DNA from: Thermacetogenium phaeum DSM 12270
Lineage (GTDB): Bacteria > Bacillota > DSM-12270 > Thermacetogeniales > Thermacetogeniaceae
Direction: 5' to 3'
Assembly: GCF_000305935.1 (NCBI RefSeq)
Contig: NC_018870.1
Span: forward strand, 1,730,001-1,794,000
DNA length: 64,000 nucleotides
A program made the position numbers and the translations under genes. Under the pieces are notes generated by a model, which was not told the origin of the DNA, ran no database searches, and saw only the letters and a list, made by a program, of their open reading frames with translations. This document shows, piece after piece, positions 9,681 through 25,764 of the stretch (position 1 is its first letter; every line of letters begins with the position of its first letter).

Positions 9681-11063
9681 TCAGCGGCCTTTCTTCGGCA
9701 GGGAGTGAAGGGATCTGCCCTGGACGTCCAGTACCGCTTCCAGGAAGGCTTCACCGAGGGTGGGATGGGGATGGATGGTGCCGCTCACATCCGCCGCCTT
9801 GAGTTTGTTTCTGACCACAACTCCCGCCTCCTGGATGAGGTCGCTGGCATGGGGGCCGATGATGTGCACGCCGATGATTATTTCGTCGGCGTCGGCGATC
9901 ACTTTGACCAGACCGTCGGTTTCGCCCATGGCCAGGGCTTTGCCGTTGGCGGCAAAGGGGAACTTTCCTACTTTGATGTCGATGCCTCGGGATTCGGCTT
10001 CTTCCTGGCTTAAGCCTACCGAGGCGATCTCCGGGAAGGAGAAAACGCAAGAGGGAACTGCGTCGTAGTCAACTCTGTGGTCGAGGCCGGCCATTCTTTC
10101 CACGGCGGCGATCCCCTCTTCGGAGGCCACGTGGGCCAGCATCGGCCCTTTGATGACGTCTCCGATGGCATAGATCCCGGGTACGGAGGTTTCGTAGTTC
10201 TCATTGATTTCGATGAAGCCTTGGTCACAGGTGACGCCCAGTTGCTCCAGCCCCAGGCCGCGGGTGTAGGGCTTGCGGCCTGTTGCCAGCAGGACGATGT
10301 CGGCAGCGCATTTGATGGTTCCCTTTTGGCCTCGGGCCACTACTCGGAGGCCGGCACCCCGGCGCTCGATTCTTTCGACTCCGGTTTGGGTGTGCACTGC
10401 GATCTTTTGTTTTTTCAGGTAGACGCCCATTCTCCTGGTGATCTCCCGATCCAGGGCACCCAGGATGTCGGGCAGGTATTCGATGACGGTGACCTGGCTG
10501 CCGAAGGCGTTGAAGATGCAGGCGAATTCGATGCCGATGACTCCACCGCCGATGACGACCAGGCGCTCGGGCACGGTATCCAGTTCCAGCAGTTGGTCGC
10601 TGGTGACGACACCCGGCAGGTCGACTCCGGGGATGGGGGGCACCGCCGGCTCGGAGCCGGTGGCGATGAGGATGTTCCTGGCGGTGATTTCTTCTCCCCC
10701 GACCCGGACACGGCCGGGTGCGGCAATGCCGGCTTCCCCTGGGATTACCTCTACGCCGTATCCCTTGAGGAGGTCTTTAATTCCGGAGGTCAGCCTGGCC
10801 ACTATCCGGTCCTTTCTTTCTCTGGCGCCTTTCATGTCGAAGCCGATGTTTTCCGCCCGCACGTTGTATTCGGAGAGCCTGGTCAGGGTCTTCAGTACGG
10901 CGGCGTTCTGGAAGTAGGCTTTGGTGGGAATGCACCCCCGGTTGAGGCAGGTGCCGCCCAGGGCGTCCTTTTCTATCAGGGCAACGTCCATTCCCAGCTG
11001 GCATGCCCGGATTGCCGCTACGTAACCGCCCGGGCCCGCTCCGATTATTATCAGGTCCTTCAT
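9681..11063 (-). CDS. lpdA: Dihydrolipoyl dehydrogenase (glycine cleavage L protein)
   Basis: A 460-residue FAD-dependent pyridine nucleotide-disulfide oxidoreductase that reoxidises dihydrolipoyl-GcvH with NAD+. Visible are the FAD-binding GAGPGGYVAAIRA, the redox disulfide GGTCLNRGCIPTKA (about residues 37-50), the NAD-binding GGGVIGIEFA and the C-terminal catalytic HPHPTLGEA (His-Glu dyad). It is separated from gcvPB by 106 bp holding a large GC-rich inverted repeat. Its position in the gcv operon supports an assignment to glycine cleavage rather than to a 2-oxoacid dehydrogenase. Confidence 0.96.
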   Translation of the reverse strand: MKDLIIIGAGPGGYVAAIRACQLGMDVALIEKDALGGTCLNRGCIPTKAYFQNAAVLKTLTRLSEYNVRAENIGFDMKGARERKDRIVARLTSGIKDLLKGYGVEVIPGEAGIAAPGRVRVGGEEITARNILIATGSEPAVPPIPGVDLPGVVTSDQLLELDTVPERLVVIGGGVIGIEFACIFNAFGSQVTVIEYLPDILGALDREITRRMGVYLKKQKIAVHTQTGVERIERRGAGLRVVARGQKGTIKCAADIVLLATGRKPYTRGLGLEQLGVTCDQGFIEINENYETSVPGIYAIGDVIKGPMLAHVASEEGIAAVERMAGLDHRVDYDAVPSCVFSFPEIASVGLSQEEAESRGIDIKVGKFPFAANGKALAMGETDGLVKVIADADEIIIGVHIIGPHASDLIQEAGVVVRNKLKAADVSGTIHPHPTLGEAFLEAVLDVQGRSLHSLPKKGR

Positions 11064-11169: not shown

Positions 11170-12621
11170 TTATTGTTGAGGTTTCCACTTGAGAATGGGT
11201 TGTCTTGCTGCTTTTGTTTCGTCCGGTCTGCGAATAACCGCATTGTGCGGCGCTTCTTGCAGCCGCTCCGGGTTTTCCCGGGCTTCCCGGTCGATTTCCA
11301 GCATGGCTTCGATGAAGGCATCCAGCCGCTCTTTGGTTTCGGTTTCGGTCGGTTCGATCATCAGGGCTTCTTCGACGATCAGGGGGAAGTAGATCGTCGG
11401 CGGATGGAAGCCGCGGTCGATCAGGCCTTTGGCTACGTCGAGAGCGGCGACGCCGTTCTCCTTTTTCTGCTTCCTGGCGGAGGCTACGAATTCGTGTTTG
11501 CAGAGGCGGTTGTAGGGTATGTCGTAGCTGCCCGCCAGTTTGGTGCGGAGGTAGTTGGCGTTGAGTACGGCGTTCCGGCTGACTTCCTTCATCCCAGCGC
11601 TGCCGAGGGCCTTGATGTAGGTGTAGGCTTTAACCATTACTCCGAAGTTGCCGTAGAATGTCTGGATCTTGCCGATGGTGTCCGGCCTGTCGTAGTTGAG
11701 CCGGTATTTCCCCTCCCGTTTTTCGATTACAGGCACCGGCAGGAATTTTGCCAGGAAGTCTTTGACGCCGATCGGTCCGGAGCCGGGGCCACCTCCGCCG
11801 TGGGGGGTGCCGAAGGTTTTGTGCAGGTTGAGGTGGCAGATGTCGAATCCCATGTCCCCCGGACGGGCAATGCCGATGATGGCGTTGGCGTTGGCTCCGT
11901 CGTAGTAGAGGAGTCCGCCGGCTTCATGGACGACCGCGGCGATCTCCCGGATGTTTTCTTCGAAAAGGCCGAGGGTGTTGGGATTGGTCAGCATCAGGCC
12001 GGCGATTTCGTCGCTCATCAGGGCGCGCAGGTCGTCGACGTCAACCAGGCCGCGCTCATCCGATTTGACTTCGATTACTTTGTAGCCCAGCATGTTGGCG
12101 GTGGCCGGGTTGGTGCCGTGGGCGGAGTCGGGTACGATCATTTTGGTGCGTTTGGTGTCCCCGCGGCTGTTGTGGTAGGCTTTGATGATCATCGCTCCGG
12201 TCATTTCCCCGTGCGCTCCGGCCGCCGGCTGGAGGGTGAAGGCGTCCATGCCGGTGATTTCGCAGAGCATCTGTTCCAGTTCGTACATCAGTTCCAGGGC
12301 TCCCTGGACGGTCTCCTCCGGCTGGTAGGGGTGGAGGCCGGCGAAGCCGGGAAGGCGCGCCGCCCATTCGTTGATCTTGGGGTTGTATTTCATGGTGCAG
12401 GAGCCGAGGGGGTAGAAGCCGCTGTCGACTCCGTAGCTTCTCCGGGAAAGTTCGGTGAAGTGGCGCACGGCCTCCACTTCGCTGACTTCCGGAAGCAGCG
12501 GGTCTTCTTCCCGCAGGTGTTCTTCAGGGATTTCTTCCGCCAGTTTTTCTTCTGGCAGGTCGCTTGCGGGCAGTGTGAACGCCCGGGCTCCTTTGACGCT
12601 CTTTTCAAAGATGAGTTTCAT
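11170..12621 (-). CDS. gcvPB: Glycine dehydrogenase (decarboxylating) subunit 2
   Basis: A 483-residue C-terminal half of the split P protein, a PLP enzyme that decarboxylates glycine and passes aminomethyl to lipoyl-GcvH. The PLP lysine lies in [20 protein letters not shown], with [12 protein letters not shown] and [11 protein letters not shown] segments upstream. Its ATG overlaps the stop of gcvPA by 4 bp (12618-12621), so the two subunits are translationally coupled, as usual in Firmicutes. Confidence 0.97.
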
Positions 12622-13937
12622 CGGCCATCCCTCCCGAGTACTGATACGAGCCTGTCGATTTCGGCGCAGGTGCGCTTTTCGGTGAAGGCAAGCAGGAGCG
12701 CTCCGTCGAGTTCGTAGCCGCCGATGATCCCTTCTTGGAGAAGGGCAGCGTTGGCCGCCCGGGGATCGGGAACGGCTACTGCGAATTCTTTGAAGAAGGG
12801 TTTCCGGTATTTCAGTTGGAGGCCGGCCTGTTCCAGTCGTCGTTTGGCGTAGCAGGCCAGTTGGTGACAGCGCCTGGCGATCTCTTTGAGGCCTTCTTTG
12901 CCCACTACGGTGAGGTAGATGGTTGCGGCCAGGGCGCAGAGGGCCTCGTTGGAGCAGATGTTGGAGCCGGCCTTTTCTCTGCGGATGTGCTGTTCCCGGG
13001 CCTGGAGGGTGAGGACGAAGGCGCGGTTGCCTTCCCGGTCAACGGTTTCTCCTACCAGTCTCCCGGGAACCCGGCGCATCAGTTTCTCGGTTGCCGCAAA
13101 GAAGCCCAGGTAGGGGCCGCCGAAGCTTAAGGGGTTGCCCAGGGGCTGCCCTTCGCCGACGGCGATGTCGGCACCCCAGGAGCCGGGCGGTTTCAGCAGG
13201 CCGAGGGATATGGGGTCAACGACCATGATCAGGAGGCCCCTGGCACGGTGGACGGCTTTTTCGATCTCTTGTAGTCCTGTTTCCAGGTTGCCGTAGAAGT
13301 TGGGGTGCTGGATCGCTACTGCGGCGGTGTTTTTGTCGATGAGGGCGGCAATGGCGTCAGGGTCGGCACCGCCGTCTTTTCCGGGTACGGTGATGATCTC
13401 CATTTTGTCGCCCATGGCGTAGGTTTTAACTACGTCCAGGTAGCGCGGGTTAATTGTGTCCGGTATGAGGATTTTTTTGCGGCGCGTGGCGTCGCAGGCC
13501 AGGGCGCAGGCCTCGGCCAGGGCGCTCCCTCCGTCGTACATGGAGGCGTTGGCCAGGTCCATGCCGGTGAGGTTGCAGATCATGGTCTGGTATTCGAAGA
13601 TGGACTGCAGTACTCCCTGACTCAGTTCCGGCTGGTAGGGTGTGTAGGCGGTGTAGAATTCGGAGCGCAGGAGCATTTGTTCGACTACCGCCGGGATGTA
13701 GTGGTCGTAGGCCCCGGCTCCAAGAAAGCAGGGGCGGTCGGCGGCGCTCAGGTTTTTGGCAGCCAGGGCCGCCAGTTCCCTGCGCAGTTCCATCTCCGAC
13801 AGCGGCCCGGGCAGGTTGAGTTCTCTGTCGAGTTTTAGGTCGTCCGGGATGTCCGCAAACAGGTCGTCGATGTCTTTTACCCCTATGGCGTCCAGCATCT
13901 GCCGGACTACCCAGGGGGGGTTGGGTACGTAGTTCAT
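12618..13937 (-). CDS. gcvPA: Glycine dehydrogenase (decarboxylating) subunit 1
   Basis: A 439-residue N-terminal half of the P protein. Characteristic words are [32 protein letters not shown] and [15 protein letters not shown]. It forms the heterotetrameric decarboxylase with GcvPB. It is preceded by gcvH with 24 bp between them and has a normal family length. Confidence 0.97.
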
Positions 13938-13961: not shown

Positions 13962-14348
13962 TTATTCTTCTGCCTTTTCGCAAAATTCGGCGTACTGTTC
14001 GGCGTTCATGAGGTTGTTGAGTTCATCCGGGTTGCTCATTTTTAAGACGGCGATGTGTTGACCGTAGGGGTCTTTGTTGAGTGTTTCCGGTTCGTCTTCT
14101 AAGGCTTCGTTGACACCGGTGATGGTGCCGGAGACAGGGGTGTGCATGTCGGCTACCGCTTTCACGGATTCGATGACGCCGATGGTGTCCCCCGCCGCAA
14201 ATTCGCTGTCGATTTCGGGCAGTTCTACGAATACGATGTCACCAAGGTGGTGCTGGGCATAGTCGGTGATGCCGATGTAGGCGAGGTCACCTTCTACCCG
14301 CACCCATTCGTGGTCTTCGCTGTAATAGTAGTTTTCTTTGATTTCCAT
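13962..14348 (-). CDS. gcvH: Glycine cleavage system H protein
   Basis: A 128-residue lipoyl carrier that shuttles the aminomethyl group between P, T and L proteins. The lipoylation site is the Lys in GVIESVKAVADMHTP (about residue 64), and the N-terminal YYYSEDHEWVRVEGD is typical. LplA, encoded downstream, is the likely modifier. A gap of 37 bp separates it from gcvT. Confidence 0.97.
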   Translation of the reverse strand: MEIKENYYYSEDHEWVRVEGDLAYIGITDYAQHHLGDIVFVELPEIDSEFAAGDTIGVIESVKAVADMHTPVSGTITGVNEALEDEPETLNKDPYGQHIAVLKMSNPDELNNLMNAEQYAEFCEKAEE

Positions 14349-14385: not shown

Positions 14386-15483
14386 TTATTTTGTTCTTTT
14401 GTAAAAGAGGCCTTCGCCGGTGCGCGCTTTTACGGGTTTGTTGCGGATGATGATGTCGATCTCTTCGCCGGGTACGGCGTATTCTTTCTCTACCAGGGCA
14501 AGGCCGAGGTTTTTACCTAAGGTCGGGGCGTAGCCGCCGCTGGTCACCCATCCGATTTTTTGGCCGTTCTTTTGGATTTCGTAACCGGCACGGGGAATGC
14601 CCCGCCCCGTCATTTCCAGTTCGACCAGCAGCCGGTCAGGGCCCTTTTCCTTTTGTTTGGCCAGTGCCTCTTTTCCGATAAAGGATGGTTTGTCGAGTTT
14701 GACAAAGCGGTCCAGGCGAGCCTCCAGGGGGGTGATCTCCCGGCTCAGTTCGTGGCCGTATAGGGGCATTTTGGCTTCAAAGCGTAAGGTGTCGCGCGCC
14801 CCCAATCCTATGGGGAGTACTTCCCCTTTGCCGGCTTCCAGTATTGCTTCCCACAGTTCGCAGGCTTTGTCAGGGGAGGTGTAGAGTTCGAATCCGTCTT
14901 CTCCGGTGTAGCCGGTGCGCGAGACGATACACTCTATCCCCGCTACTTTGACCGCAGGCCGGAACCAGTAGTAGTTGATTTCTTTGAGGTCGGTGTCGCA
15001 GATGCTCTGTAAGACTTCTTCCGCCAGCGGACCCTGCAGGGCAAGTTCTGCATAAGTTTCGGAGACGTTCTCCAGGGTGACCCCGGGGAGCTTGTGTTCC
15101 TGCATCCAGGCAAAGTCTTTGTCGGTGTTGGCGGCGTTGATGACCAGGAAGTAGTGGTTGCGGTCGTATTTGTAGATCAGGAGGTCGTCTACGCAGCCGC
15201 CGTCCGGATAGCACATCGGTGAGTAGCAGACCTGGTTTTCTTTGAGTGCGCTGATGTCGTTGGTTATCAGTTCCTGCACAAATTCTTCGGCCTTTTCACC
15301 CCGGATGTCGACCTCTCCCATGTGGGAAACGTCGAACAGTCCGGCCTTTTGACGCACCTGGTGATGTTCGGCTATGATGCCCGTAGCCTTGTACTCCACC
15401 GGGAGCTCCCAGCCTCCAAAATCGATCATGTTGCCGCCGTGTTTTTGGTGCATCGGGTACAGCGGTGTTCTCTTTAAGGACAT
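14386..15483 (-). CDS. gcvT: Glycine cleavage system aminomethyltransferase (T protein)
   Basis: A 365-residue tetrahydrofolate-dependent enzyme that releases ammonia and forms 5,10-methylene-THF. Recognisable segments are FGGWELPVEY, LFDVSHMGEVDIRG, SRTGYTGEDGFELY and the C-terminal GWVTSGGYAPTLGKNLGLALV. It is the first gene of the gcv operon, directly downstream of the glycine riboswitch leader. Confidence 0.97.
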   Translation of the reverse strand: MSLKRTPLYPMHQKHGGNMIDFGGWELPVEYKATGIIAEHHQVRQKAGLFDVSHMGEVDIRGEKAEEFVQELITNDISALKENQVCYSPMCYPDGGCVDDLLIYKYDRNHYFLVINAANTDKDFAWMQEHKLPGVTLENVSETYAELALQGPLAEEVLQSICDTDLKEINYYWFRPAVKVAGIECIVSRTGYTGEDGFELYTSPDKACELWEAILEAGKGEVLPIGLGARDTLRFEAKMPLYGHELSREITPLEARLDRFVKLDKPSFIGKEALAKQKEKGPDRLLVELEMTGRGIPRAGYEIQKNGQKIGWVTSGGYAPTLGKNLGLALVEKEYAVPGEEIDIIIRNKPVKARTGEGLFYKRTK

Positions 15484-15600: not shown

Positions 15601-15640
15601 TAAAAACAGAGCAGAGGGATCCTCCCATGCTGCTCTGTTT
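15601..15640 (-). terminator. Terminator hairpin B in the gcvT leader
   Basis: A perfect 11-bp stem formed by 15604-15614 and 15630-15640 (AAACAGAGCAG / CTGCTCTGTTT), with an inner GGGA/TCCC extension. On the minus strand it is followed by a run of T at 15606-15602. It lies between the riboswitch and gcvT. Its 5' arm can also pair over 9 nt with the 3' arm of hairpin A, so it is probably the regulated terminator. Confidence 0.75.
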
Positions 15641-15681
15641 AACCTAAAAAGCTGAATCCGTTTTCAGTGGCATCAACAAGT

Positions 15682-15722
15682 AAACAGAGGGCAAGGAGGT
15701 ATACCTCCCCTGCCCTCTGTTT
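15682..15722 (-). promoter_or_regulatory. Leader hairpin A (expression platform, overlaps aptamer 2 P1)
   Basis: Arms 15682-15693 and 15711-15722 pair perfectly over 12 bp and continue into the palindrome GGAGGTATACCTCC. Its 5' arm (minus-strand reading) includes the CAGAGG that closes the P1 helix of aptamer 2. Glycine binding should therefore disfavour this hairpin. Only a poor U-tract follows, so I read it as the anti-antiterminator rather than the main terminator. Confidence 0.65.
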
Positions 15723-15888
15723 TGTACCTGAGAGTTTCGCCCTTTGTCGGGCTTGCCCCTTCGGCGTTCCTAGAACTTTCCAGAGGTTGTCAGAATACGG
15801 TCTTTGCACCTGAAAGATTCGCTAATACCCGGGGAAGATATTAGCTTGCATCTTCGGTACGGGGCATAGCCCCGTTTCTCCCGTATTC
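15714..15888 (-). ncRNA. Tandem glycine riboswitch
   Basis: Two glycine aptamers in series on the minus strand upstream of gcvT. Aptamer 1 is closed by GAATACGG/CCGTATTC (15881-15888 with 15793-15800). Aptamer 2 is closed by CCTCTG/CAGAGG (15781-15786 with 15714-15719). Both contain the conserved core words GGAGAAAC or GGAAAGTT, then CCGAAG, GCAAG or GGCAAG, and GAATCTTTCAGG or GAAACTCTCAGG. By family knowledge this is an ON switch: glycine binding allows expression of the cleavage operon. Confidence 0.95.
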
Positions 15889-15928
15889 TTCATCCACCAA
15901 TATTTATTTTTTGCAATAACCTAATTTA

Positions 15929-15957
15929 ATATTATTATACAGTTCTGGTAATGTCAA
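15929..15957 (-). promoter_or_regulatory. Promoter of the gcv operon (sigma-A type)
   Basis: On the minus strand a consensus -35 TTGACA (15957-15952) is followed after exactly 17 bp by -10 TAATAT (15934-15929). Transcription would start near 15922, about 34 nt before the first aptamer. A mobile element (with its target duplication starting at 15961) sits immediately upstream. Confidence 0.8.
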
Positions 15958-16181: not shown

Positions 16182-17576
16182 TTAAATCACCAGACGAAGT
16201 TGAGCCGGTTTATCGCGGAGCCTCTTCAACCTGGAGAGGTCAAGCCAGTTGCCCGTGAATGTCTGCCATAAAAACCGCAGAGTGCCGCGCATGCCCAACG
16301 TTTGCACCGTTTCCCATAAGGCCACGGTGTGCAGGGTAAGAATGTTGATCAGGTGGGCCAGACGCATCAGGGCGTGCCACCCTTTCAAAGCGTTCCAGTC
16401 GTATGAAAAGGGATGTTCATAGTTGTATCCGCGGCGTTTTTCAATCAGGAAGTTCTCTTTAATACCCCACCGGTGACGGGCCGCCCGGTTGCAGCGGTCG
16501 ATTACGTTTTTTTTGGTAATTGGGGTGCCCGACACCCACGCCCAGGTAGTCTGACAGGTTAGTCCGTTTTCTTCCCAGGTTTCTTTGCAAACCACCACGT
16601 GGATCACCAGGCGATGATGCTGGTTTTGGGCATCCCGCCAAACGTAGACAATGTCGTTAGCCCACCAGAAGTTCTGAGTCCGGTTGCCCCACTGATGGGT
16701 CCGGGTTTGCTCCGGTTCCAGTTGATGGATTCCTAAAGCGTCCTCCCAGACCGATTTAAGACAGTTTGAAGGCAGGACGATCATGAAGTCCCAGTTGTTC
16801 TTCCGGCAAATCTGCATCACCGGGCCACCTGCGTAAAGACCGTCGGCCACGATCAGAAGAGGGAGTTTGCCCATCAGTTCTTTGAGACGCGGAGCCAGAC
16901 GATAAAAAGCCTTTAATTCGCAGTCTTGTTTATCCTGATCCCGATTTTCGCAGAATTCGGCCAGCAGGGGAATAACGATCCCTTGCGGACCCACCAGAGC
17001 AGCCTCCAGGAGGTAGACATAGTTTTCGCCCTTGCGGCGGAGCGCCTCCGGGGCGAAGGGAACGGTCCGGGTGAACTTCTGGGTGCCGTCGATGGCGACC
17101 ACATAGCGCTTCTCGACCAAAAGCGCCTGTAACTTCTTGTTGCGTAAGAGCTTGCGGACGGTGGTCCCCAAAATGTTTTCGATTTGCTCGGCCGGGATCC
17201 TTTCCAGGAGCCGGGCCAGGGTGTCCAGGTGGGGAATGCTGTCTACATCGGGAAAGACAGACCGCAGCGCATCTAAGATAGCTGGACAGCTGAGCTCCCG
17301 GTTGGCCTCGCGCCGGGAATTATACTGAAAGATAAACAAACATAAGCCAAAAACCATGAGAACGGTAAGTTTGTGCCTGATGCTCCCGGGCCGGCGGGGA
17401 TCCTTTAAGCGGCCGAACTTTTCTAAAAGGCCGGGTAAAATCGCCCGCCAGGCATTGAGCTGGGCCTCCACGGCCGACTGCCGGGCCTCTTGCTCTTCCT
17501 CCACCGTTTTCCAGGGGCTTTTGCGGTTGGGTAAGGTGGCCGAATTGATTGCCTCCGGATTACGCATCAAACTCAT
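16182..17576 (-). CDS. DDE transposase of the DUF4338-containing element
   Basis: A 464-residue transposase of the DDE/RNase H fold. Near residues 50-60 it has LKDPRRPGSIRHKL, recalling the transposase-associated N-terminal domain of ISAs1-like enzymes. Candidate catalytic residues are Asp in VAIDGTQ, Asp in LLIVADGLYAGG and Glu in RWGIKENF followed by EKRRGYNYEH. The ORF is intact and lies between the terminal repeats of the element. Its start overlaps the end of the DUF4338 gene by 17 bp, implying coupled translation. Family name is uncertain. Confidence 0.85.
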   Translation of the reverse strand: MSLMRNPEAINSATLPNRKSPWKTVEEEQEARQSAVEAQLNAWRAILPGLLEKFGRLKDPRRPGSIRHKLTVLMVFGLCLFIFQYNSRREANRELSCPAILDALRSVFPDVDSIPHLDTLARLLERIPAEQIENILGTTVRKLLRNKKLQALLVEKRYVVAIDGTQKFTRTVPFAPEALRRKGENYVYLLEAALVGPQGIVIPLLAEFCENRDQDKQDCELKAFYRLAPRLKELMGKLPLLIVADGLYAGGPVMQICRKNNWDFMIVLPSNCLKSVWEDALGIHQLEPEQTRTHQWGNRTQNFWWANDIVYVWRDAQNQHHRLVIHVVVCKETWEENGLTCQTTWAWVSGTPITKKNVIDRCNRAARHRWGIKENFLIEKRRGYNYEHPFSYDWNALKGWHALMRLAHLINILTLHTVALWETVQTLGMRGTLRFLWQTFTGNWLDLSRLKRLRDKPAQLRLVI

Positions 17577-18471
17577 CGCACTTGCCCGCCACCGGCGCTG
17601 GTGCGCAAAGCTCCTCCCGCCATTCCCGGACCAAGGGGTAAACGAACATCAGCCTGACTACCGGACTGCCTTTTTGCCTCCGGGGTTCTCTGCCCAGGCC
17701 GGCTGTTTCGCCGATGCACTGCCAGTTGGCCGCCCGGTAGCAGGTCCCCTGGTGCGGTGGGGTGACAAAGGTCTCTAAAAGCACCGGGGCATACCCGTAC
17801 CGTTTTTGCCAGTCCGCCCGGATGCGCCGGGCGACCAGCGCCAGGGCATGGCTGGCCAGGTGGGGTATTTGCACCCCCGGCAGAATTAAAAAACGGCTGT
17901 TGTTGATGATGCGGTAACGGAATCGCTTGCACTCCACCGCCGTCCACCCAATCCAGGATTCCCGGACGGCCACCTTCCTGGCCGCTGCGGCAAATAAGAG
18001 GGCGCCCAGGATCTCGACCCTCCCTTCAGCCCGGCTGTGGATCCAATACCGCTGGTGGGCGCCAAAGGGCTGGCGGTAACCGAGCGGGTGATAAGCCGCC
18101 ATCGTTGCGTTCCAAAGGGGTTGTTCTTTTAGCGGGACCGGATCAACTGTCACCGGAAGATACTGTTTCAACGGACCTTCCCTGGAGATGCAGGGTAAAG
18201 GTGCAACCTTCTTTACATTTCTTTTGGGCGGATTTTTCTTGGGGGGCAGTTCAATTAAACCGGAAGCCTCGAGCTGTTCCAGGAACAGGCGGCAGGCCTC
18301 TATTTTCAGTTTGCCGTTCGGTGCTTTCCAGGGCAGGTTTTCGCAAATTGTGGCGAACAGTTCCCGGCGACTGAGGCGCTTGAACTGCCGGACAGTTTCT
18401 TTGATCAGCGCCAAATCATCCGCTGTAAAAAGACGATCCCCAATCCAAAAGGGTGGGTTCCATGAGCGCAA
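17560..18471 (-). CDS. DUF4338 (DruA-like) protein carried by a transposable element
   Basis: A 303-residue protein. The N-terminal ~60 residues are helical (IKETVRQFKRLSRRELFATI, NLPWKAPNGKLK). Residues about 125-290 form a DUF4338 domain, with typical words ESWIGWTAVE, NNSRFLILPGVQIPHLASHAL and HQGTCYRAANWQCIGETAG. The same domain defines DruA of Druantia anti-phage systems. Here no druB-E, helicase or other defence gene is nearby; instead it overlaps a transposase gene inside precise inverted repeats. I infer a role in transposition. The likely start is TTG at 18471 after a GAGG-type site. Confidence 0.82.
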   Translation of the reverse strand: MRSWNPPFWIGDRLFTADDLALIKETVRQFKRLSRRELFATICENLPWKAPNGKLKIEACRLFLEQLEASGLIELPPKKNPPKRNVKKVAPLPCISREGPLKQYLPVTVDPVPLKEQPLWNATMAAYHPLGYRQPFGAHQRYWIHSRAEGRVEILGALLFAAAARKVAVRESWIGWTAVECKRFRYRIINNSRFLILPGVQIPHLASHALALVARRIRADWQKRYGYAPVLLETFVTPPHQGTCYRAANWQCIGETAGLGREPRRQKGSPVVRLMFVYPLVREWREELCAPAPVAGKCDEFDA

Positions 18472-25097: not shown

Positions 25098-25247
25098 CTA
25101 TTTTTCCGACTGTTCGCTCTCCGGAGAGGAATCGGGAGGGGTGATCTCCGGACGTTCACTTCCCGGGTGAAAAGGAGCCGGCTCCGGTTGCGGGATCTCC
25201 AAAGGGCTCATATCCGGGTGGGGAATACGGAAACTTCTCACTACCAT
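25098..25247 (-). CDS. Short proline-rich hypothetical protein
   Basis: A 49-residue ORF starting MVVRSFRIPHPDM with a Pro/Glu/Ser-rich tail. An AGGTGAT sequence precedes it, favouring ATG 25247 or GTG 25241; a longer reading from TTG 25331 would overlap the upstream stop but translates into an unconvincing N-terminus. I recognise no family. Whether it is really expressed is uncertain. Confidence 0.4.
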   Translation of the reverse strand: MVVRSFRIPHPDMSPLEIPQPEPAPFHPGSERPEITPPDSSPESEQSEK

Positions 25248-25327
25248 CACCTCATCTCTAATATGCCCCCGGATGAGTCCGGTTATGTGCCGGCTGGGAA
25301 AATAAAAACCGAAACAGCCACAACCCG

Positions 25328-25552
25328 TCAATCCTGTCCCATAACGGAATCAAGGCCATACTTTTCGAAGTGCTCCCTAAGATACTCAACGGTATTTTCG
25401 GTTACGCCGAACCGACGGGCCATCTCTTCATCGGTCAAGCCCTCTTCCAGAGCAGCAATAAAGGAATCAAAGTCGATACCTACATCCTCAACAAGCGCTT
25501 TCAGACTCGGCTGTAGCCCCCAGGGAGGTCCTAATCCGAATGCTGCCGCCAT
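25328..25552 (-). CDS. Small helix-turn-helix protein
   Basis: A 74-residue protein whose middle (about residues 38-62) reads as a helix-turn-helix: LTDEEMARRFGVTENTVEYL. A ribosome site (GGGAGG) precedes the ATG. It could be a small DNA-binding regulator. It is divergent from the MoxR-like gene at 25765 with 212 bp between. Confidence 0.65.
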   Translation of the reverse strand: MAAAFGLGPPWGLQPSLKALVEDVGIDFDSFIAALEEGLTDEEMARRFGVTENTVEYLREHFEKYGLDSVMGQD

Positions 25553-25764
25553 ATTTTTTTTGCCTCCCTTTCTTTTGATATTGCTTTACCTGCAGTTCAC
25601 TATATAATATTGGGGAATGGCATTGATCTTATACAATAAACACAAAAGCACTCCTGACGTCTCCTCAACACCTGAAGCCTGACAGAAGGAACACCATCCC
25701 CAGATGTCGAATCTCCAAATGTTTGTTCTTGAACTGAACTTGGGAAAGGAGAAACAAAAGCGAA

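Follow-up and report, generated by a model that had tools for sequence, protein, structure and literature searches.

The gcv operon leader of the acetate-oxidizing thermophile Thermacetogenium phaeum carries one tandem glycine aptamer followed by two terminator-like hairpins, referred to here as A and B. We tentatively interpret it, with confidence just short of even, as a glycine ON riboswitch in which the one tandem aptamer would run two linked, homologous terminators in series. Without glycine, the A 5' arm, which includes the 3' strand of the aptamer 2 P1 stem, would pair with the A 3' arm, so that A forms and can terminate; polymerases that run past A would then reach B, also formed. With glycine, P1 would capture the base of the A 5' arm, and A would lose its lower stem and cease to be a terminator. 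The freed A 3' arm would pair with the B 5' arm, over 9 bp and then as a fused hairpin, leaving B blocked and gcvT transcribed. Common descent of the two hairpins from one pair of P1-terminator arms would be why the first could hold back the second. Four parts of this mechanism are inferred: that glycine binds, that transcription terminates at both sites, the kinetic order of events, and a role for the coupling in the cell; the pieces, their predicted energies, the kinship of the leaders, and the rarity of the arrangement in our sample are observations. The mechanism is plausible and specific in folding, and the exact pairing occurs in T. phaeum only among the species compared.

The gcv leader and its operon

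The window, that is, the whole 64,000-nucleotide stretch analyzed, covers positions 1,730,001 to 1,794,000 of contig NC_018870.1, and all coordinates below refer to it. The T. phaeum genome (accession CP003732; PMC3551663) comprises 2,939,057 bases, with the glycine leader and the gcv genes on the minus strand. The features are as follows, in the direction of transcription.

15929-15957, minus strand: promoter-like TTGACA-17-TAATAT upstream of the leader (10 of 12 consensus matches; consensus only)
15788-15893, minus strand: glycine aptamer 1 (RF00504, 64.8 bits, E 3.6e-11; gathering threshold 32)
15707-15793, minus strand: glycine aptamer 2 (RF00504, 50.7 bits, E 2.8e-10, searched alone; gathering threshold 32)
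15781-15786, minus strand: aptamer 2 P1 5' strand, CCTCTG (from the sequence)
15714-15719, minus strand: aptamer 2 P1 3' strand, CAGAGG, common to the hairpin A 5' arm (from the sequence)
15682-15722, minus strand: hairpin A, terminator-like (18 pairs, one bulge, -30.8 kcal/mol by folding; d = 12.7)
15681-15689, minus strand: hairpin A 3' arm, CTCTGTTTA, able to pair with the B 5' arm (9 of 9 pairs)
15642-15680, minus strand: A-B spacer, matching the position of a decayed aptamer 2 3' end in sister leaders
15633-15641, minus strand: hairpin B 5' arm, TAAACAGAG (sequence and fold)
15604-15640, minus strand: hairpin B, predicted intrinsic terminator (-21.1 kcal/mol by folding; d = 12.8)
15602-15606, minus strand: U-run of terminator B, TTTTT (from the sequence)
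14386-15483, minus strand: gcvT (PF01571, 1.9e-93; PF08669, 6.9e-22)
13962-14348, minus strand: gcvH (PF01597, 2e-41)
12618-13937, minus strand: gcvPA (PF02347, 1.2e-138)
11170-12621, minus strand: gcvPB (PF21478, 1e-29; PF02347, 1e-18)
9681-11063, minus strand: lpd, dihydrolipoamide dehydrogenase (PF07992, 1.1e-76; PF02852, 3.1e-37; operon order per PMC12674515)
8653-9657, minus strand: lplA1, lipoate-protein ligase (PF21948, 8.5e-75)

Judged by scores above the RF00504 gathering threshold, both tandem glycine aptamers are real. A whole-genome search of T. phaeum with RF00504 hit one place, aptamer 1 of the gcv leader, and the leader reached 71.7 bits against the glycine-GGAnGA model (RF03166), below the gathering threshold of 110 for membership in that class. 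Glycine-related genes lie downstream of the leader (gcvT, gcvH, gcvPA, and gcvPB by Pfam), and the full order gcvT, gcvH, gcvPA, gcvPB, lpd, lplA equals the operon published for T. phaeum (PMC12674515). Upstream of the gcv promoter, two overlapping open reading frames (16182-18471, minus strand) encode a DDE_Tnp_1-associated transposase (16182-17576; PF13808) and a DruA-domain protein (17560-18471; PF14236), which look like a transposon-borne pair.

Published proteome data bear on the direction of the switch. GcvT is reported to show the top fold change on glycine relative to non-amino-acid substrates, and the authors link the increase of these enzymes during growth on amino acids with the glycine riboswitches known from Streptomyces griseus (PMC12674515). 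The GcvT rise is indirect evidence that fits an ON switch and is compatible with one terminator or two alike. Neither gcvH1 nor lplA1 was abundant in any condition of that study (PMC12674515), and the operon proteins therefore do not rise evenly.

Two terminator-like hairpins in series

A first-pass annotation of this DNA had proposed a cascade of hairpins built from CCTCTG, CAGAGG, CTCTGTTTA, TAAACAGAG, and TTTTT, all of which are present on the minus strand. As it had stated, the P1 3' strand CAGAGG also lies in hairpin A, and the A 3' arm matches the B 5' arm exactly over 9 nt (CTCTGTTTA/TAAACAGAG). The 12-bp stem that it gave for hairpin A is the unbroken base of the hairpin, AAACAGAGGGCA/TGCCCTCTGTTT, which forms the lower part of a longer stem of 18 pairs with one bulge. 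The tail of A, TTTACTTGTT, directly follows its last CTCTG.

We scored both hairpins with a d'Aubenton-Carafa-type terminator score, of which only relative values are used, and the two were nearly equal (d = 12.7 for A and 12.8 for B). The tail score nT was 3.14 for A versus 4.20 for B, and single-terminator relatives had tails no better than that of A (3.11 in G001 and 2.73 in G013). Because A scores as well as B and the tails of relatives are no better, the leader probably holds two serial terminators, and hairpin A is unlikely to be a silent relay to a single one. The first-pass annotation had made A solely an anti-antiterminator, with termination at A rather than at B as the outcome that would count against its scheme; by these scores, A looks no less likely than B to terminate transcription. 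By scores only, the leader thus has the makeup of a Bc1-type dual terminator, with two intrinsic terminators in one platform before a gene. It also has the makeup of a terminator-controlled ON switch: CAGAGG (15719-15714) belongs to both P1 and A, and the predicted probability of A drops when P1 is forced. A separate origin of hairpin A from a repeat or mobile hairpin was considered and rejected, as a search of the T. phaeum genome returned only the leader itself and the opposite-strand palindrome.

Folding with and without P1

Without constraints, the region spanning aptamer 2 through hairpin B had a minimum free energy structure containing both A and B (-85.1 kcal/mol). When P1 was forced, the best structure had neither; the A 3' arm paired with the B 5' arm and the upper A 5' arm with the B 3' arm, giving a fused A-B hairpin whose 28 cross pairs extend the 9-bp pairing. 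At 37°C, this fused form (-72.2 kcal/mol) was better by 3.7 kcal/mol than P1 with B (-68.5 kcal/mol), and at 55°C, a temperature included since the organism is thermophilic, it was better by 3.2 kcal/mol (-45.4 versus -42.2 kcal/mol). Forcing P1 lowered the probability of A from 0.89 to 0.01 and that of B from 0.98 to 0.02 at 37°C, with corresponding drops from 0.88 to 0.03 and from 0.96 to 0.06 at 55°C. At each of the 12 transcript lengths sampled with the B 5' arm out, and at both temperatures, the best structure under forced P1 contained the 9-nt pairing. The switching logic of the first-pass annotation, in which P1 displaces A and the freed arm blocks B, is therefore reproduced in folding, and what finds no support is the casting of A as a mere anti-antiterminator; overall, its interpretation is partly supported. 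A glycine-OFF logic was set aside, as P1 removes both hairpins in folding.

Single terminators of leaders from the same family provide a yardstick for this loss. With P1 forced at 37°C, they kept probabilities of 0.54 to 0.66 in five leaders and 0.88 to 0.91 in four leaders; against these values, the T. phaeum leader is unusual in losing A and B almost completely. In two of the relatives (L032 and L036, from G001 and G013), the single terminator overlaps P1 by barely one base, and forcing P1 leaves 0.90 and 0.91, respectively.

The fold with P1 forced, which takes no account of tertiary structure or of binding energy, lies 12.9 kcal/mol above that with A and B together, and therefore the switch would need a kinetic decision. 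Once formed, the fused hairpin was separated from B by 18.4 kcal/mol at 37°C and 16.4 kcal/mol at 55°C along the lowest path found. From an intermediate with P1, upper A, and the 9-nt pairing, the barrier on the lowest path found to B was 6.8 kcal/mol at 37°C and 7.2 kcal/mol at 55°C, and that to the fused form was 12.3 and 6.3 kcal/mol, respectively. Because the barrier to B at 37°C is 6.8 kcal/mol versus 12.3 kcal/mol to the fused form, B may still win and its release may be incomplete, above all at 37°C.

The unconstrained fold also pairs AACCT at the P1 5' strand (15788-15784) with AGGTT just before B (15645-15641), both on the minus strand, and this pairing might help to hold P1 open without glycine. 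In the fold of the G002 leader, the equivalent region pairs with its spacer differently.

How specific is the pairing between A and B?

Since A and B are homologous, other glycine-switch terminators are a fair yardstick for the A-B match. Among ordered pairs of single-terminator hairpins from the same bacterial family, 5 of 56 had a perfect run of at least 9, as did 218 of 4,556 ordered hairpin pairs from the other leaders. The duplex of the A 3' arm with the B 5' arm (-17.8 kcal/mol) was equaled or exceeded in 31 of the 56 family pairs and in 372 of the 4,556 others. The unbroken run is thus above average, and the strength of the duplex is ordinary for the family.

We also let 84 terminator-like hairpins, all taken from glycine leaders, stand in turn in the position of B. 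Without constraints, 80 of the 84 formed more than half of the time; the remaining four are A hairpins and are uninformative on P1. With P1 forced, only 6 of the 80 fell below 0.5: native B (0.01), the B hairpins of sister leaders (0.05, 0.12, and 0.14), L040 of the same family (0.08), and L199 (0.40). Because so few of the swapped hairpins respond, the predicted blocking of B is not a general effect of the leader, and it mostly follows from the kinship of A and B. When A was given the 3' tail of the G014 sister, which has no CTCTGTTTA arm, the coupling was abolished (probability of B with P1, 0.98 versus 0.014).

Sister leaders

A DNA search with the leader gave matches in 11 of the 20 family genomes, T. 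phaeum included. In two of these 11 (G006 and G007), the match was weak and confined to the A palindrome, with no CCGAAG aptamer core within several hundred bases. Both hairpins are kept in three sister leaders from two genomes, namely, G002 and contigs C3 and C17 of G014. Hairpin A of the sisters is without the CTCTGTTTA arm, has TTTTT directly after GCCC, and keeps 10 (G002), 9 (G014 C17), and 9 (G014 C3) of the lower 12 positions paired. The 9-nt cross-pairing holds at 9 of 9 positions in T. phaeum and at 5 of 9 in each of the three sisters, so that it is perfect in one of the four double-terminator leaders. Covariation in support of this pairing was looked for in the three sister leaders and none was found; the pairing is likewise not conserved across them. 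At the foot of B, one of eight pairs is changed on both sides between T. phaeum and the sisters, from G-C to C-G, which is consistent with B being maintained as a hairpin.

With P1 forced at 37°C, the sisters keep B at probabilities of 0.95 (G002), 0.58 (G014 C17), and 0.68 (G014 C3); at 55°C, the values are 0.60, 0.17, and 0.26, respectively. In the same order, B is favored over the fused form by 2.4, 1.1, and 0.7 kcal/mol at 37°C, and the two lie within 0.2 kcal/mol of each other at 55°C. From these probabilities and energies, some coupling seems to be built into all four leaders, and it is predicted to be decisive at both temperatures in T. phaeum only.

In genome G014, gcvT occurs in at least three copies, all with a glycine leader nearby (L037, L038, and L039 on C3, C17, and C21; also L041 on C25), and RF00504 has eight matches versus one in T. 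phaeum. In L044 (G018 C296), part of aptamer 2 is duplicated within the leader, giving two GCCGAAGG cores; by eye, the downstream gene looks like one of the thioredoxin-reductase type rather than gcvT.

Origin of hairpin B

Relics of the 3' end of a lost aptamer were found in the A-B spacer of two of the three sister leaders. In G014 C17, GTGAATCTCTCAGGTTAGCGA matches the 3' end of the G008 aptamer 2 at 20 of 21 positions, and in G002, a match to the aptamer 2 3' end covers 17 of 18 positions; none of 1,000 shuffles was as good in either case. The spacers of T. phaeum and G014 C3 taken alone gave no such relic (692 and 135 of 1,000 shuffles as good, respectively), nor did the T. phaeum spacer match the sister spacers beyond chance (101 to 120 of 1,000 shuffles as good). 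For these two leaders, a lost aptamer is suggested because the hairpins and their flanks align. Because the spacers of two of the three sisters hold the 3' end of a lost aptamer, B is probably the leftover platform of a decayed second glycine riboswitch. The simplest history would be tandem duplication, loss of the aptamers of the second unit, and survival of B. A whole riboswitch-terminator unit stands twice in tandem in G001, with 268 bases identical (L032, C23, about 25204 to 25608 of the contig), as either a recent duplication or an assembly artifact.

Under shared descent of A and B, complementarity between the A 3' arm and the B 5' arm is expected, and what appears special to T. phaeum among the leaders compared is the perfection of the pairing. 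It is possible, at a confidence of about one in three in our estimate, that the terminator of the decayed duplicate was recaptured by the surviving aptamer through strand exchange between homologous hairpins, with the nine pairs perfected in T. phaeum.

Rarity of two nearby terminators

We surveyed 285 loci by pattern search rather than with a covariance model and recovered 188 distinct glycine leaders in 182 loci, with exact copies merged and near copies kept. The loci came mostly from the best-scoring matches listed and are not a random sample; a riboswitch may be absent from some of them, and at least two leaders (L027 and L038) were counted as having one aptamer because the pattern overlooked their aptamer 2. 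RF00504 itself had matches in 70 of the 121 relatives searched and, at the level of the phylum, in 221 of 398 genomes. Before the reading frame, 42 of the 188 leaders had no terminator-like hairpin, 140 had one, and 6 had two. Four of these six are the leaders of the T. phaeum clade; in the other two (L246 and L253), the second hairpin lies about 210 to 240 nt on, and we tentatively take it to be a T-box terminator. Counting two hairpins within 300 nt in any frame gave 5 of 188, the same four clade leaders plus L152, in which the hairpins lie inside a predicted open frame. Two nearby terminators are thus rare, in 4 of the 188 leaders surveyed, all of the T. phaeum clade; an earlier, smaller survey gave 4 of 107.

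Alternative explanations

The evidence can be read more simply, as an ordinary switch with a back-up, in which A is regulated, B is a leaky and unregulated leftover, and their complementarity is a functionless by-product of descent. We consider this unlikely, though it is the most serious of the alternatives. A shares the P1 strand and scores as a terminator, leaders with a single terminator are the rule (140 of 188), sister spacers hold relic aptamer sequence, and the perfect pairing is not conserved while the duplex strength is ordinary for the family. There is also a precedent in the c-di-GMP riboswitch Bc1, where an intact T2 masks T1 and the switch does not respond (PMC11218506). However, a strong constitutive B would hold gcvT low even in the presence of glycine, and GcvT is reported to be high on glycine (PMC12674515); moreover, P1 specifically abolishes B in folding of the T. 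phaeum leader, and the B stem is maintained.

A strict cascade, in which A never terminates and acts as an anti-antiterminator only, leaving B as the sole terminator, seems improbable. It draws on the weaker A tail TTTACTTGTT (nT of 3.14 versus 4.20 for B) and on the TTTTT that directly follows GCCC in sister A hairpins, whereby the T. phaeum lineage may have swapped a U-run for a pairing arm; against it, the overall score of A equals that of B, and the single-terminator relatives G001 and G013 have tails that are no better (3.11 and 2.73). More improbable still is a degenerate leader, in which expression is set elsewhere and neither the coupling nor termination at B is significant in the cell. 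In its favor, the relic in the T. phaeum spacer is no longer recognizable by itself, but both hairpins, both aptamers, and the B U-run are intact, and GcvT responds to growth on glycine (PMC12674515).

If the surviving aptamer did recapture the terminator of a decayed duplicate, duplication would supply ready-made linked terminators and thereby solve the masking that leaves Bc1 unresponsive. The T. phaeum leader points to a way for a single sensor to control both stops, and the sister leaders would serve as natural, more weakly coupled comparisons. Together, they would show a route from riboswitch duplication and decay to a tighter switch.

Comparison with known systems

In the gcvT riboswitch of Bacillus subtilis, P1 and the terminator compete for one strand. 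Like the T. phaeum leader, that switch is a tandem of two glycine aptamers with ON logic and a rho-independent terminator by aptamer 2 (PMC5666159). It has one terminator, whereas T. phaeum has two, with the freed arm of A predicted to be able to block B. We found no description of the T. phaeum double-terminator leader in the titles and abstract openings of a literature in which subscription journals are barely covered.

The Bc1 riboswitch of Bacillus thuringiensis likewise has one aptamer and two intrinsic terminators, 28 bp apart, and the paper on it describes two terminators within one platform as seldom encountered (PMC11218506). When T1 of Bc1 unfolds, T2 remains almost intact and masks T1, leaving the switch unresponsive to its ligand (PMC11218506). 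The ligand differs in T. phaeum, and whereas T2 of Bc1 persists, the second hairpin of T. phaeum is predicted to be lost with the first. Tandem complete riboswitches for one ligand, described as pseudo-cooperative (PMC9481103), represent the probable ancestor, and whole tandem units are present in G001. Those tandems consist of two full switches, whereas the second unit in T. phaeum is without aptamers and has its terminator alone left. Attenuators with antiterminators, which include most transcription-controlling OFF riboswitches, also rely on mutually exclusive helices in sequence (PMC2258182); the exclusion in T. phaeum would drive an ON switch through two terminators. Set among these systems, the linked double terminator predicted for T. 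phaeum is a plausible variation on a well-known kind of switch.
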